Assembly: GCA_963580285.1 (NCBI GenBank)
Contig: OY757010.1
Location: 213,622,138-213,686,137 of the forward strand
DNA: 64,000 nt
Reading direction: 5' to 3'
From: Lucinisca nassula
Taxonomy: Eukaryota > Mollusca > Bivalvia > Lucinida > Lucinidae
Position numbers and translations under genes: made by a program. This document shows, piece by piece, positions 26,746 to 51,690 of this stretch. The stretch's first letter is position 1, and each line of letters begins with the position of its first letter. The notes below the pieces were generated by a model. That model was not told the origin of the DNA. It did no database searches and saw only the letters and a list, made by a program, of their open reading frames with translations.

Positions 26746-28110
26746 GTTTTATATAGGCTTATATAGGGAAAACCTTTTGAAATGTTCTTGACTGAAACCA
26801 GAAGGCCCAAGTCTTTGATATTTGGTATGAAGCTTCATCTAGTGGACCTCTACCAAGATTGTTCATATTATTGCCCTGAGGCCAAAAATGGCCCAACCCC
26901 GGGGCCCACTGATTTTACATAGGCTTATATAGGGAAAACCTTTAAAAATCTTCTACTCTGAAACCAGAAGGCCCAGGTCTTTGATATTTGGTATGAAGCT
27001 TTATCTAGTGGACCTCTGCCAAGATTATTCAAATTATAGCCCTGGGGCCAAAAATGCCCCCACGCCGGGGCCCACTGGTTTTACATAGGCTTATATAGGG
27101 AAATCCTTTGAAAATCTTCTCGTCTGAAACAAGGAGGCCCAGGTCTTTGATATTTGGTATGAAGCTTCATCTAGTGGACTGCTACGATGATTTTTTATTA
27201 TATATTATAGCCCTGGGGCCAAAAATGACCCCACACAGGGGCCCGCTGGTTTTACATAGGCTTATATATGGAAAACCTTTAAATCTTCTTATCTGAAACC
27301 AGAAGACCCAGGTCTTTGATATTTGGTATGAAGCTTCATCTAGAGGACCTCTACCAAGGTTGTTCAAATTATAGCCCGGGGGCCAAAAATGCCCCGCGCC
27401 GGTTTGCACTGGTTTTATGCAGGCTTATAGTTTGGGAAAACCTTTAAAAACCTTCTTGTCTGAAACCAGAAGGCCCAGGTCTTTGATATTTAGTATGAAG
27501 CTTCATCTAGTTGATCTCTACCAAGATTGTTCAAATTATAGCCCTGGGGCTAAAAATGCCCCCCGCACCGGGGCCCACTGGTTTCATATTGGCTTACATA
27601 GGGAAATCCTTTGATAATCTTCTTGTCTGACACCAGAAGGCCCACGCCTTTGATATTTGGTATGAAGCTTCATCTATAGAACCGCTATGAAGATTGTTCA
27701 AATTATAGATGTGGGGCCAAATATGGCCTCACACGGGGGCCCACTGGTTTTAGATAGACTTATATAGGGATCGAAAACCTTTAAAAATCTTCTTGTCTGA
27801 AACCAGAAGGCCCAGGTCTTTGATATTTGATATGAAGCTTCATCTAGTTGACCCCTACAAAGATTGTTCAAATTATAGCCCCAGGGCCAAAATGCCCCCG
27901 TGCCGGGGCCCACTGGTTTTATGCAGGCTTATGATAGGGAAATCTTTAAAAATCTTCTTGTCTGAAACCAGAAGGCACAGGTCTTTGATATTTAGTATGA
28001 AGCTTTATCTAGTTGACCTCTATCAAGATTGTTCAAATTATAGCCCTGGGACCAAAAATGGCCCTCTCGCTTTACATAGACATATTAGGGAAAAACCTTT
28101 AAAGTCTTGT
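26745..28110 (+). repeat. ~167-bp satellite array
   Basis: The block TCTTTGATATTTGGTATGAA recurs at 165-170 bp spacing, eight copies from 26,812 to 27,982, each with GCCCTGGGGCCAAAAATG. The same satellite occurs at 50,220-51,690. Confidence 0.95.
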
Positions 28111-28189
28111 CTCAAATAGGTCACTGGGGCACGTGCAAAACTCTTAGCTCATAGCTCAGGTGAGCGATATAGGACCATCATGGTCCTCT

Positions 28190-32742: not shown

Positions 32743-34607
32743 AACATCAATAATGGTTTGACGAGTATGACGAAGAAATACAGGGACTCCTCGAAGAGAA
32801 TCACCAAAATACAGGGCATACCAGAGTGATACGAGCTCAGTATCTAACAAGACGGCCTATTCAGATATACGCAAGACAGTCCAAACAAGACTCAGAGACA
32901 TGCAAGGCACCTGGTTGACCAACAAGGCTGATGAAATTCAGTCATTTGCAGACAGAAAGGATGTGAAAAAGTTATTTGATGCACTTCAGACAGTTTATGG
33001 TCCCCAGAGCTCAGGAACCACTCCTCTTCTCAGTGCAGACGGAACTAGACTTCTGACTGGCAAAGAGACTTTCTTGAAAAGATGGGCTGAGCACTTTGAT
33101 AGTGTTATTAATCGGCCTTCCTCGATCAGTGACGATGCTATCAACAGTCTACCACATGTTACCTGTTGCTTTACAAGTTCCCAACCGTTACTGAAACAGT
33201 GACGGCAATAAACTTTCTGCCATCTAGCAAGGTTCAAGGACCAGATGCAATACCTGCTAAGATCTACAAAGCAGGAGGTACTCCAGTTGCAAAGAAGAGA
33301 TATGTTACATTATGTGGAGAAAAGAAGATGTCCCTCAAAAATTCAAAGATGCGTCAATCAACCTGTTCAAACTGAAAGGGAAACCTCAGATCTGTAACAA
33401 TCATCGTGGCATCCCTTTATTGTCAATTGCTTGGAAAGTCCTTGCAAGAGTTCTACTTAACCGACTGAATGAACACCTTGAACAGTCAGGGCTTCTACCA
33501 GAAAGCCAGTCTGGGTTTAGAAAAAACTGAGGAACAATTTAAATGATCTTCACATCAAGGCAGCATGAAAGGAAATGCCAGGAACAGAACATGAACCTAT
33601 ACATGACCTTTGTTGATCTTACCAAACCATTTGACACAGTCTATCGTGAGGGTCTTTGGAAAATAATGGCGAAGTTTGGATGTGCAACCGAGTTCAGAGC
33701 AATGGTCAGACAACCCCACGATGGTATGCTTGCACGGGTCCAAACTGATTGTGAGTTTTCAGATCAATTCCTGTGAAAATTGGAGTCAAGGCTGTGTGCT
33801 AGCTCCAACAAAGTTCAGCATGATGTTCTCTGCCAAGCTCATCGATGCTTTGCAGGATGGTGACAATGGCAAACCTATCAGGTATCGCTTTGATGGGAAA
33901 CGTTTCAATCTCAGATGGTTGCAAGCCAAATCCAAGGTGCAGAAAGAGGTGCTAGATGAGTTCCTCTTTGTTGATGGCATGGCAAAAGGTGACCCAGGAA
34001 GAGAAGATGCAAAATGGTATAGATCAAGTATCTGACTACTGCCATAGCCATGACCTCAAAATTAGCATCAAAAAGACAGCCAGCACCTGACAAGCCTTAC
34101 AAAGACCCCACCATCACAGCAAAAGGTGGTACACAAGTAAACCTACCTTGGAACACACTGTCAAGAGCCGTGCACATTGATGATGAAGTCAATGTCAGGA
34201 TTGCCAAAGCTAGTGCAGCATTTGGCCGATTGCGTGGTAGTGTCTGGAATCGAAGTGGAATCAGACTTGACAAAACAAAACTGAAAGTCTACAAAGAAAT
34301 GGTGCTGCCAAGACAAGTGTATACATGTGAAACATGGACAGTTTACCAACGGCACGCAAAAGACAGAATCACTTACATATAGACTGTCTTAGAAAACTCT
34401 TAAAGATTAAATGGCAAGACAGGGTTCCAGACCCGGAAGTCCTGAACAGAGCAAGGATGCAAAGTGTACATACTCTTCTGAAAGTAGCACAGTTACGTTA
34501 TCAGAATGCCTGAGGAACGTTTGCCAAAGAAAATTCTCTATGGAGAACTAGAAATGGGCAAATGCTCCCATTGCCACCAGGAGAATCGCTACAAGGACAC
34601 GCTCAAA
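32743..34607 (+). pseudogene. non-LTR retrotransposon reverse transcriptase, frameshifted (main part)
   Basis: Decayed LINE copy without its 5' endonuclease region. Coding similarity starts near 32,750 (WFDEYDEEIQ). It continues through WAEHFDSVINRPSS (33,088-33,127), the RT entry segment with AIPAKIYKAGG, CNNHRGIPLLSIAWKVLARV and SGFRKN, then motif A as FVDLTKPFDTV (33,609-33,641), GCVLAPTKFSMMF (33,791-33,829), a motif C degraded to FLFVDG instead of the catalytic F/YADD (about 33,962), and the thumb/connection region to 34,600. At least four frame changes and an in-frame TGA near 33,530 break it. Known role: target-primed reverse transcription of its own RNA. This copy cannot be active. 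I place it among non-LTR elements with a C-terminal C2H2 finger; the clade is not certain. It is interrupted at 34,607 by a hammerhead element. Confidence 0.9.
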
Positions 34608-34884
34608 TAAAAATCAAAACTGAGTTCCTTTAAGAGCAATGAAAACATTCATAAGAAAGAAGATGGGTCATACTACGTAGTTTCGGCTAATAAAGCCTCA
34701 TCAGTGACCCTGTAATGATCCGGCAAAGAAAGCCAGAGCAAACATACTGCAATTTTGCGAATTTCGAATAGGCAGTCGATTCAAAGACTGATATAAATCA
34801 AAATGGGGTCCAAATAATTAAAAACCTGTCTAGAATATGAGTCTAAACCAATAATATATTTCCGATTTCTCAGAATATTCACGC
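34604..34884. repeat. LTR-like direct repeat 1 of retrozyme
   Basis: Aligned offset to the second repeat is exactly 383 bp, from CAAATAAAAAT to ATTCACGC. Few differences are visible, for example TGCGAATTTCGAAT versus TACGAATTTCGAAG. Confidence 0.92.
34665..34710 (-). ncRNA. hammerhead ribozyme, type I, copy 1
   Basis: Read on the minus strand from 34,710: stem I GGGUCA, core CUGAUGA, stem II GGCU-UUAUU-AGCC, core GAAA, short palindromic stem III CUACGUAG, cleavage dinucleotide UA, then UGACCC closing stem I (6 bp). All invariant core positions are present. The predicted scissile bond lies between complements of 34,671 and 34,670. The very short stem III is typical of retroelement hammerheads, which often act as dimers. 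Confidence 0.88.
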
Positions 34885-34986
34885 TGATCTCAAAGGACCA
34901 AAAGTAAAATATAAACTGCACTATGGTTGATGTACGGGGAAACGTTTTACGGCCGCCACACGGCACAACACCAGCTGCAGTGAAGG

Positions 34987-35266
34987 CAAATAAAAATAAA
35001 AAATGAGTTCCTTTAAGAGCAATGAAAACATTCATAAGAAAGAAGATGGGTCATACTACGTAGTTTCGGCTAAAAAGCCTCATCAGTGACCCTGTAATGA
35101 TCCGGCAAAGAAAGCCAGAGCAAACATACTGCAATTTTACGAATTTCGAAGAGGCAGTCGATTCAAAGACTGATATAAATCAAAATGGGGTCCAAATAAT
35201 TAAAAACCTGTCTAGAATATGAGTCTAAACCAATAATATATTTCCGATTTCTCAGAATATTCACGC
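34987..35266. repeat. LTR-like direct repeat 2 of retrozyme
   Basis: Partner of 34,604-34,884. It is one base shorter, in the loop of ribozyme stem II. Confidence 0.92.
35048..35092 (-). ncRNA. hammerhead ribozyme, type I, copy 2
   Basis: Same structure as copy 1: GGGUCA / UGACCC, CUGAUGA, GGCU-UUUU-AGCC, GAAA, CUACGUAG, UA. The only difference is a one-base shorter, altered loop II, so all paired and catalytic bases are kept. Predicted cleavage between complements of 35,054 and 35,053. Confidence 0.88.
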
Positions 35267-35553
35267 AAAGCCTCCCCAGGGACTTCAACCTCCAACATAG
35301 TCGTAGAAACAAATTGCACAGGACAGAGCAAAGTGGCGAGGTCTCATCGGAAGGGGTGCCAGTGAATACGAGGCAAAACAAACCAGTGAAGCTGAGCAGA
35401 AACGCGCACAGCGCAAAGCCAGAGCTCAGGCATTACCAACAGAGATGTCTTCCTCTAGCCTCTGTTGCTCTATATGCAACAGACATTTCAGAGTTAGTAT
35501 TGGTGTCATCAACCATCTTAGAACACACAAACAGTAACATTTTTCACTTATGA
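35266..35553 (+). pseudogene. LINE C-terminus with C2H2 zinc finger
   Basis: Continuation of the LINE after the retrozyme. In the frame ending at about 35,538 it reads ASEYEAKQTSEAEQKRAQRK and then a CCSICNRHFRVSIGVINHLR finger (Cys-x2-Cys-x12-His-x3-His) followed by a stop. The position and type of finger agree with the end of the reverse-transcriptase protein in this LINE group. A longer open frame in another phase is a shadow. Confidence 0.85.
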
Positions 35554-36225
35554 TTAAGCTTGGTCATCGTCAGTAATGGAAGACGAACTATTATTATTAC
35601 CATTTAGTTCTCTAAATGCTGTCGTCTATTAGTTCTTTTACGTAAGAAAATGACTCTTTTATCAAAAACTGAAGAGCTGATTTTTTTTTATTATTTTTTT
35701 AACAAAACACATGAAACACGATTTCTTGTTCAGTGGATCTCAGAGGTACTTGTTGGTTCTCTTTTAATTGCTGCAGCATGTTAAGCTCTTTTACAAAACC
35801 TTTTCATTTTTGGCAAAAAAATGCAAAAATTAAATTTTATTTTTATTAACTTGTCCTGGGCCAACTTAGGTCCCCATAGACGAGCTATGTTGTTAGTCTT
35901 CTGACCATTTTTGTTGGTCTGGTAAGCCTTATACCAATAACCCGCGACGGTTGCAAGGATACACCAAACGACCCTCAAATATTCTAAATTCTCATCTCTA
36001 CACTCTATGGATCTGTAACAACTAAGACCTATTGGCATTTTATCTACATCCTCGATGTAACCTATTATACCCCTATTATCCACAGGAAGAGCCAATGTTG
36101 CCTATGTGAGACCACGTTTTTATCTCCAAAACTCCAACATGTAGCCCCTATGTATGCTGATAAAAGTTAGAAGATCCTGTAGTCCACTGCAAAACTTGAA
36201 TCGAATATAAGAACTCATCATGAAA
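35554..36225. other. no gene recognised
   Basis: AT-rich, possibly the LINE 3' untranslated region at its start. The open frame 35,781-36,095 on the minus strand resembles nothing known to me. Confidence 0.4.
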
Positions 36226-39209: not shown

Positions 39210-39489
39210 TAGGCAGAATGTGTTGGCATGACGTCTTCATTTCGTACATTCTTCACAGTATGGCCGTGCTAAGGTAATTTGTCATATGAGACAAGTAGCA
39301 TAACCACTATACCCCGTACATCCATCAAAGTGCAGATTATATTTTCTTGTCCTTTCAGTTCATTTAGAATCATTTTGAAAATAAAGCTCTGCTTAAGTCG
39401 GTGCAAGAGAGCGTTGCTGGTGTTGCATATTTCAGTACTGGCCATGAACAGACTCAATAAAACCGAGTCTTTTCTTTTCGTGTATTTGT

Positions 39490-41565: not shown

Positions 41566-41919
41566 TTAGTTCGAACATTTTTCACGGTATGGCCGTGCTA
41601 AGGTAATTTGTCATATGAGACAAGTAGCATAACCACTATTCCCCGTACATCCATCAAAGTGCAGATTATATTTTCTGGTCCTTTGAGTTCATTTAGAATC
41701 ATTTTGAAAATAGAGTTCTGCTTAAGTCGGTGCTAGACGGCGTGGCCGGTGTTGCATATTTCAGTACTGGTCATGAACAGACTTAACAAAACCGAGTCTG
41801 TTATTTTCGTTTATTTTATTTTTTTTTATTTTTTTTGCCCTCAAAGTATCTAACTATTCGATACTAATTATTCTGACTTGCAGTTCGTCTTTGCATGTAT
41901 GTATTGCTAATACCTTTAT

Positions 41920-49985: not shown

Positions 49986-51690
49986 GTAGTGACAATGTGA
50001 GCTTTTGTGATCACTTCTTGTCCGTCATCCGTCGTCCGTGCGCGTGCGTGCGTGCGTTCATGCGTGCGTCCGTCCGTAAACACTTTCTTCAAACAACATC
50101 ATCTCCTAAACCACTGATCGGATTATGACCAAACTTCACATGAATGATCCTTAGGTGGTCCCCTTTGTAAGTGGTTCAAACAGTTTCGGTTCACTGCACA
50201 TCTATGTCACAGGAGCTAAAAATAGTTTGTGTTTGTAAATGAAAACTTAAAAAATCTTCTTCTCTGAGCCCAGGTCTTCGATATTTAGTATGAAGCTTCA
50301 TATAGTAGACCTCTACCAAGCTTGTTCAAATTACAGCCCTGGGGCCAAAAATACCCCCGCACCAGAGCCCACCAATATTACATAGACTTATATAGGGAGA
50401 ACCCTTAAAACTCTTCTTGTCTAGAAACAAGAAGGCCTAGGTGTTTGATATTTGGTATGAAGCTTCATCTAGTGGACCTCTACCAATATTGTTCAAATTA
50501 CATCCCTGGGGCCAAATATGCCCGGGACCCACCAGTTTTACACAGACTTATATAGGGAAAACCTTTTAAAATCTTCCCGACTGAAACCGGAAGGCCCAGG
50601 TCTTTGATATTGATATTTGGTATGAAGTTGTATCTAGTGGACCGCTACCAATATTATTCAAATCATAGCCCTGGTGCCACAAATGCCCCCCGCGCCGAGG
50701 ACCACCGGTTTTACCTAGACGTATATAGGGAATACCTTTAAAAAAAACTTCTCGTCTGAAACCAGAAGGCCCAGGTGTTTGATATTTGGTATGAAGTTGT
50801 ATCTAATGGACCTCTACCACGGTTATTTAAATTAAGGCCCTGGGGCTAAAATGCTCTTGCCCCGGGGCCCACCGGATTTACATATACTTATATTGGGGAA
50901 ACCCTTTAAAAGTCTTCTCGTCTGAAACTAGAACGCCTAAGTGTTTGATATTTGGTATGAAGCTTCAACTAGTGGACCTCTTCCAAGATTGTTCAAATTA
51001 TAGCAATGGCGTCAAAAAAGCGCCACAGGGTCCACTGTTTTAATATAGACTTACATGAGAAACCCAATTTAAAAATCTTCTCGTCTGAAACTAGAAGGCC
51101 AAAGTCTTTGATGTTTCGTATGAAGCTTCATCTAGTGGATCTCTACAAAGATTGTTCAAATTATAGCCATGTGTCCAAAAAATGGCCCTCCACGGGGTCC
51201 ACCGGCTTTACACAGACTTATATAGGGAAGTTTTTAAATTTTTTCTTGTCTGAAACCAGAAGTCCCAGGTCTTGGATATTTGGTATGAAACTTCATCTTA
51301 TGGACCGCTACCGAGAATGTTCAAATATTAGCCTTGGGGCCAGAAACGGCACCGTCCGGGGACCCACATGTTGTGCATAGACTTACATAAAGGAAACCTT
51401 TAACAATTGTATTTTCTGAATCCAAAAGGCCCAGAGCTTTGATATTTGGTATGAAGCTTCATCTAGATGACCCCTACCAAGATCGTTCAAATTATAGCCT
51501 TTGATCCAAAAATGGCCCTGCCCCAAGTCCCACCGGTTAAACATAGATATATAGGGAAACCCTTTAAAAATCTTCCCGTCAGAAACCAGAAGGCAGAGGT
51601 ATTTAATGTTTGGTATGCAGCTTAATCTAGGGGACCTCTACGAAGAGTGTTCAAATTATAACCCTGGAGCCATGGTAAAAAGGCCTTTAA
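49985..51690 (+). mobile_element. satellite-bearing composite element, truncated relative
   Basis: Begins GTAGTGACAATGTGAGCTTT, GTGATCACTTCTTGTCCG as at 24,580. It then has a CGTGCGTGCG run, one unrelated unit and about nine copies of the ~167-bp satellite (TTTGATATTTGGTATGAAGC). The first two satellites and the right end are missing. Confidence 0.75.
50220..51690 (+). repeat. ~167-bp satellite array, second locus
   Basis: Same unit as 26,745-28,110, more diverged between copies. The 124-codon frame at 51,006 is an artefact of the repeat. Confidence 0.93.

Follow-up and report, generated by a model that had tools for sequence, protein, structure and literature searches.

A retrozyme-type element with paired hammerheads in Lucinisca nassula and its genomic family with one fixed and one variable end

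How does a short DNA element with two nearly identical hammerhead ribozymes come to lie, as an incomplete tandem repeat, inside an old LINE? The question is raised by the window analysed here, a stretch of 64,000 nucleotides from the bivalve Lucinisca nassula, in which a retrozyme-type element with paired hammerheads sits in a decayed LINE (Table 1). A preliminary description of the window had reported two 281-bp direct repeats and likened their architecture to that of known retrozymes and of the pLTRs of Penelope-like elements (PLEs). The repeats themselves are real: positions 34604-34884 and 34987-35266 are 98.2% identical at a spacing of 383 bp, the alignment containing four substitutions and one indel. 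A reading as long terminal repeats (LTRs) or pLTRs did not hold, since the 281 bp are the overlap that results from 1.73 turns of a 383-bp unit, and among 36 insertions of the family the right boundaries are scattered. The element has a local GC content of 0.39 and contains no open frame of 120 aa.

Table 1 Features of the element and its host LINE in the window
Feature	Positions	Strand	Remark
Complete 383-bp retrozyme unit	34604..34986	-	Hammerhead sense is the minus strand
Partial second unit	34987..35266	-	0.73 turn, up to the variable end; 1.73 units in all
Type I hammerhead ribozyme a	34665..34710	-	Predicted cut at the 34671/34670 bond
Type I hammerhead ribozyme b	35048..35092	-	Predicted cut at the 35054/35053 bond
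Fixed end of the family	34604..34615	-	AAATAAAAATC on the plus strand; putative start of reverse transcription
Variable end and LINE junction	35262..35269	.	CAAA in common with the left junction
Domain common to families 1 and 2	34885..34984	-	Best-conserved part, about 55 bp, recurs in other repeats
Decayed host LINE	33667..35534	+	Reverse transcriptase piece at 33667-34035, C-terminal tail at about 35307-35534

The insertion site and the hammerheads in the window

As judged by eye, the host LINE probably continues upstream of 33667. Its open piece at the left matches reverse transcriptase fragments in a protein search, many of the 120 matches listed carrying PF00078, while a Pfam search of two fragments of the LINE gave no match. 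That removal of the insert restores the LINE, as had been claimed, was confirmed. The peptide of the joined flanks, read in three blocks through two old frameshifts of the LINE, matches 434 proteins; at least 90% of it is covered in 118 of the 120 matches listed, with 63-74% identity among them. The stretch over the junction is ungapped in all six aligned relatives, the sequence RYKDTLKAS being exact in four and carrying one substitution in two, and the insertion in the window is therefore clean. The four bases CAAA, previously described as a target duplication, do stand at both ends (34604-34607 and 35266-35269), but they occur again at 34987-34990, where the second unit starts. Because the repeat unit itself begins with CAAA, these bases are ambiguous evidence for a target duplication, and the letters at the junctions fit a blunt insertion with AAA microhomology as well as a duplication of 3-4 bp. 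The window also contains an ankyrin-repeat gene with 40-45% identity to the bivalves Mactra, Sinanodonta and Dreissena and with closer relatives at 71-83%.

A pattern search located a complete type I hammerhead on the minus strand of each repeat, in agreement with the preliminary description. Hammerhead a consists of GGGTCA, CTGATGA, GGCT, TTATT, AGCC, GAAA, CTACGTAG, TA and TGACCC, and hammerhead b is the same except that loop II is one nucleotide shorter. By pattern, these are the only two complete type I hammerheads in the window, and 120 random strands drawn from a first-order Markov model contained none. The two predicted cleavage bonds agree with the 383-nt monomer proposed earlier. The covariance models gave a divided answer: Rfam at its gathering cut-offs yielded no hammerhead match, whereas a permissive search of positions 34000-36000 found both sites weakly, with 20.9 and 20.3 bits (E 0.27 and 0.4) for RF00008 and with E-values of 6.6 and 9.2 for RF03152. 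Exact hammerhead patterns had no match in viral contigs.

Folding energies were predicted for single and paired hammerheads and for the circular unit. In a monomer the hammerhead pairing reaches -11.6 kcal/mol, compared with -14.0 kcal/mol for the best fold, which is not a hammerhead. Two hammerheads are predicted to co-fold at -42.3 kcal/mol through the palindromic helix III, a single one at -14.0 kcal/mol. The circular fold of the unit has a predicted energy of -90.8 kcal/mol (z -2.5).

A young genomic family and a second family with paired changes

A 411-bp query was compared with the 2.93-Gb genome (696 contigs), and the search for further 383-bp units, as had been suggested, found many sisters. 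There were 1082 candidates, of which the best 40 were scored, giving 128 match rows that are 94-100% identical and lie on many contigs; the 383-bp family is young. The 39 other loci were taken with flanks of 1.5 kb and aligned to a tandem ruler made from the unit of the window. After removal of L018, L021, L022 and L024, whose flanks are identical to those of L015, the 40 loci represent 36 independent insertions. The length of the query and the choice of the best 40 of 1082 candidates favour young copies and arrays of more than one unit.

The two ends of these insertions behave differently. The left end lies at unit phase 0-2 in 31 of the 36 insertions and at most 2 nt from phase 0 in 33. Exceptions are L009, which begins four bases early, L023, which begins four bases late after a 20-base stutter of the start, and L013, in which apparent extra element bases resemble the target sequence beside its empty-site relatives. 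The start motif can be aligned across all 36, with letter variants in L026, L030, L033 and L043 and with L013 shifted by two columns through an alignment gap. This fixed end is the 3' end in the RNA sense, approximately 65 nt downstream of the predicted cleavage site. The right ends are scattered from phase 16 to phase 351, and the arrays measure 1.21-4.36 units in this sample, which favours long arrays. With repeat boundaries that are not fixed across the 36 insertions, the elements are without LTRs. Five of the 36 right ends cluster at phase 325-327, a weak signal that was equally tight in 65 of 20000 random sets. Copies that might have run off at the cleavage site are too few for a conclusion (L026 ends at the site, L056 4 nt beyond and L054 5 nt short of it).

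For 12 of the 36 sites an insert-free relative was available, and nine were readable by eye (L012, L013, L025, L029, L030, L031, L035, L043 and L046); L020, L026 and L037 were set aside owing to large gaps in the matches of the joined flanks. As aligned, the nine sites have near-blunt joins or losses of up to eight bases. The loss in L013 amounts to about three bases once 14 apparent element bases are counted as target, and the junction of L029 has two extra bases. At most of the sites 1-4 bases of microhomology (A, AA, AAA or CAA) to the fixed start were found. A clear target duplication was seen at none of the nine, and at these readable sites the 4-bp duplication is not a trait of the family. 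Short matches between the two ends are commoner than in shuffled pairs of flanks (mean score 1.47 versus 0.93; 0 of 200 shuffles as high), by a score that also registers short microhomology. Very short target duplications are compatible with this excess and with the two extra bases of L029.

The units within one array resemble each other more than chance would allow. For the counts of shared variants L015, L019 and L041 were left out, as these arrays contain internal jumps or foreign sequence. In the remaining 33 arrays, 32 variants are present in every unit that covers the position, where a random draw would be expected to give 3.35 (at most 9 in 300 draws), and 154 variants are not common to all covering units. 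A polymorphic A/T site is mixed in one of 21 arrays against 9.1 expected, a value reached in none of 20000 shuffles; with the three excluded arrays restored it is mixed in three of 24 against 11.7 expected (1 of 20000). Among 138 distinct private variants, two match a shared variant of another array and 11 recur in at least two arrays. At the A-rich start, a C-to-A change at phase 11 is found in one unit only in eight arrays, and in six of these, the window included, it is the second unit that has it; we take it tentatively as a repeated copying error.

The young family says little about selection on the ribozyme. Near-intact hammerheads number 71 in 34 of the 36 loci, and 53 of the 71 are identical; the motif is no more conserved than the rest of the unit, and the near-identity of the pair in the window therefore proves little. 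The preliminary description was right that the two copies differ in loop II, but its conclusion that the structure is preserved is weakly founded when most hammerheads in the loci read are identical. Better support is given by a second family, with a unit of 261 bp, which was seen in the flanks of other loci: L014, L030 and L079 contain it, L056 has a short piece of it and L034 an older relative. Family 2 has a fixed end of its own, the five loci ending 84-90 nt past the cleavage site. The core of its hammerhead is kept, while helix II has changed on both sides from U-A to C-G and the palindrome of helix III on both sides from CTACGTAG to CTAGCTAG. In a set of ten hammerheads (six of family 1, four of family 2) chosen from more that were seen, 95% of the cells pair. 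The percentage paired, the number of double-change cells and the covariation score lie above all 500 shuffles and above every slid control. The number of pairs with double changes (two) and of further pair types (three) was equalled or exceeded in 438 and 496 of the 500 shuffles, respectively. The paired changes in family 2 thus appear to support conservation of the ribozyme better than the pair in the window does, on the basis of few evolutionary events in two families.

The two families have a domain of approximately 100 nt in common, and both contain a stretch with AAAGGA. The best-conserved part of the common domain, about 55 bp long, recurs in other repeats, among them 39312-39362 and 41639-41691 in the window.

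Template, stopping points and the mobilising enzyme

We propose that retrozyme arrays are copies templated by a circle, begun at a fixed start and continued for more than one turn, and that the direct repeats of the window are the overlap of 1.73 turns; we estimate the probability of this reading at roughly three in four. A genomic array would be transcribed from the minus strand and the transcript cut by its hammerheads into 383-nt monomers, as the motif and the dimer fold suggest. The hammerheads probably act as dimers through the palindromic helix III CUACGUAG. Monomers would then be closed into circles by a host RNA ligase, a step for which PMC7229834 offers support from other animals. An enzyme supplied in trans could prime cDNA synthesis from cut genomic DNA and begin at one constant position within the circle, the U-rich GAUUUUUAUUU, which follows the cleavage site by about 65 nt on its 3' side and is where the fixed end is observed. 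Synthesis would go round the circle 1.2-4.4 times and halt at scattered places, in keeping with the observed pattern of ends. The far end may finally be joined with little or no target duplication by short A-rich microhomology, to judge from the nine readable sites.

The position of the start limits the choice of template. As it lies about 65 nt past the cut, cDNA made on a cleaved linear monomer would end after about 65 nt, and arrays longer than one unit need either a circle or an uncut multimer. A linear transcript that is uncut or partly cut, and not a covalent circle, is an unlikely template in our estimation but deserves to be taken seriously. Existing arrays could be transcribed as multimers, and L026 ends at the cleavage site as a cut linear 5' end would. 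The finding that only two of 138 private variants match shared variants of other arrays argues against the copying of mixed linear multimers, as does the uniformity at the A/T site, and PMC7229834 documents circular forms of such RNAs from other animals. Judged from these sequences, the data would favour one circular molecule copied per insertion, with uncut multimers of a uniform parent array remaining compatible because they too could give uniform arrays. The circular 383-nt RNA of the preliminary description is still an inference, now with genomic support.

Two further readings were considered. If the element were an LTR-type retrozyme or a pLTR pair, it should have fixed terminal repeats of 281 bp around an internal region and a 4-bp target duplication. 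The two hammerhead-bearing direct repeats and the CAAA at both ends look like this, and in PMC11167929 a PLE has a hammerhead where pLTR and ORF meet, but the repeat length is not fixed, the right end varying over 1.2-4.4 units, and the readable empty sites have no consistent duplication. In addition, no piece of PLE family b (L078 and the family-b proteins) was found in the 1500-bp flanks of the arrays, and pattern scans of 30 PLE loci and the larger units L078, L080 and L081 detected no hammerhead belonging to a PLE. We consider this origin very improbable. The same low credence is given to a dispersed tandem satellite that spreads as DNA, by unequal crossing-over or DNA circles, with the hammerhead as a passenger. 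Its units are tandem as in a satellite, and unit layouts differ at identical flanks in a larger repeat (the L015 group versus L018 and L024), which means that the number of units can change in place. A satellite does not account for one fixed and one variable end at 36 independent sites, for clean insertion at the readable empty sites and in the LINE of the window, or for the double changes that preserve the pairing of the ribozyme in the second family.

A fixed 3' end and a variable 5' end of the RNA are LINE-like. The retrozymes have both, and mobilisation in trans by a LINE, in the manner of a SINE, instead of by a Penelope-like element is a substantial possibility, although we rate it below even odds. 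Both LINEs and PLEs are left possible in PMC7229834. Against a LINE, copying of the retrozymes would start inside a circular or multimeric template, much as a PLE in PMC11167929 initiates internally; reverse transcription of that PLE starts 111-118 nt into the ORF, and its hammerhead cuts 26 nt into it. The resulting distance from cut to start, 85-92 nt, compares with about 65 nt for family 1 and with 84-90 nt for family 2.

PLEs are numerous in the genome: scoring of 150 from 746 candidates gave 138 GIY-YIG matches, some in neighbouring pairs, and open frames of up to 820 aa. The distance from cut to start in the retrozymes is near that of the published PLE, and the sequence of those PLEs of the genome that were read is unlike that of the retrozymes. 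Of 19 rows with ends of PLE family b, 13 run on into TA repeats, a target that the retrozymes do not have in common with them and that argues against mobilisation by PLEs. The resemblance between the retrozymes and the published PLE is one of geometry only. With these points on either side, we suggest tentatively, and with less than even confidence, that the hammerhead cut, the AAAGGA stretch and a start 65-90 nt downstream form a module recognised in at least two families by one enzyme, most likely Penelope-like, and that the insertions record target-primed reverse transcription of circular RNA. If true, such a module would explain how, and by what, animal retrozymes are primed.

Three apparent associations of PLEs with retrozymes were rejected. 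A hammerhead near the PLE locus L076 belongs, in the extended locus, to a separate retrozyme array of 3.27 units (L079). L054, a candidate for a PLE-retrozyme chimera made by twin priming, has junctions that show a PLE embedded in a TA repeat, with a retrozyme piece of 60 nt next to it. In L056, about 60 bp of other sequence separate the family-2 piece from the 3' end of the PLE to which it had seemed directly fused.

Relation to known retrozymes and Penelope-like elements

The element in the window is a member of the metazoan non-LTR retrozymes as these are described in PMC7229834 (Cervera and de la Peña 2020). Members of this class are characterised by linear and circular transcripts and active ribozymes, and have neither PBS nor PPT. 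That work reports type I hammerhead retrozymes with units of 350-390 bp in mussels, and the class has in common with our element the type I hammerhead, low-GC units of approximately 170-400 bp in dimers to short multimers, many dispersed copies, a mollusc host, and the lack of coding capacity and of LTRs. Target duplications of more than 4 bp are optional in metazoan retrozymes according to the same source, so that the near-blunt or slightly deleted joins found here leave the membership unaffected. The newt and axolotl retrozymes, amphibian satellite hammerheads that we liken by their description in PMC7229834, have a short helix III with a palindromic tetraloop, cleave better as dimers and form tandem units of about 330-350 bp in a different host; the predicted co-fold of the window hammerheads through the palindromic helix III fits the dimeric action reported for them.

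The plant LTR retrozymes are likewise non-autonomous, carry hammerheads and move via circular RNA (PMC4918200, PMC11722881), but, as far as PMC7229834 describes them, they are distinguished by LTRs, PBS, PPT, type III hammerheads and larger units, and their fixed LTRs and 4-bp target duplications were not found in the insertions and readable empty sites of our family. Variable cDNA length and tandem copies in plants are ascribed in PMC11722881 to the processivity of the reverse transcriptase. The PLE of PMC11167929 is similar in its internal start tens of nucleotides 3' of the hammerhead cut and in its tandem or partial-tandem copies. In contrast to the retrozyme, which has no ORF, a PLE encodes an RT/GIY-YIG ORF, and the target preference of PLE family b is unlike that of the retrozymes; the PLE start is described in PMC11167929 as not homologous to the cut DNA, whereas short A-rich microhomology is found here.

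That tandem copies are made on circles has been published as a hypothesis: PMC7229834 already proposed it for tandem cDNA, PMC11722881 repeats it, and the model is also found in PMC7761336. Our study adds the fixed start, the scattered stops and the uniform arrays, all from genomic insertions. In the passages of PMC7229834 used here neither a fixed start with a variable end nor uniform arrays are described, both of which were measured in this study, and among the open-licence papers listed by our searches no title or opening lines of an abstract describe the three features for animal retrozymes. The priming and the mobilising enzyme of animal retrozymes are left open in the parts of PMC7229834 and of the 2024 review PMC11722881 on which we draw. 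The insertions of a young family keep a record of where copying began, where it stopped and which template was used, and this makes the question of priming open to test: any candidate enzyme would have to begin on a circle at a site that is predicted with a precision of a few nucleotides.

Layout and unit variants of the arrays

Five copies of the 383-bp retrozyme with the same flanks (loci L015, L018, L021, L022 and L024 of the same genome) represent one insertion within a larger repeat that has itself been multiplied, and the unit layout varies among them. A C-to-A change at unit phase 11, counted from the fixed end (window positions 34615 and 34998 and their equivalents), is restricted to a single unit in 8 of 33 arrays, the second unit being affected in six of these. 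Perhaps copying errors are especially frequent at the A-rich start.

Open frames were also found within or beside two retrozyme loci, L041 (~1997-2980) and L042 (~438-740). From the translated letters, our guess is that they look like genes from a larger DNA element of viral type. The open frames recurring in the window (Table) are apparently a repeated interspersed element.

Related repeats and a second family

Part of the retrozyme-unit domain is present in other repeats. Two tandem copies of such a domain-bearing repeat lie in locus L023 (2150-2750), and no obvious hammerhead was found in these copies. In a second retrozyme family, the unit is 261 bp long, the hammerhead covaries and the 3' end is fixed.

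Table. Positions of repeated features in the window and at other loci (L) of the genome
Feature	Location	Identity
Open frames, type LKIFLSETRRPRSLIF...	window 27754-28119 and 50973-51380	
Retrozyme-domain part in other repeats	window 39312-39362 and 41639-41691	~82% over 55 bp
Family 2	L014 2986-3389	
Family 2	L030 2700-2991	
Family 2	L079 2049-2252	
Family 2, short piece	L056 2120-2210	
Family 2, older relative	L034 2705-2930	~73%
Tandem Penelope-like elements	L078 (C5:145335000-145344900), L080, L081	

Tandem Penelope-like elements

The Penelope-like element (PLE) copies in L078 are 99.94% identical across 3331 bp, with their 764-aa frames open. This family has two main 3' ends, ~41 nt apart, and in this resembles the tail of the published PLE (PMC11167929).
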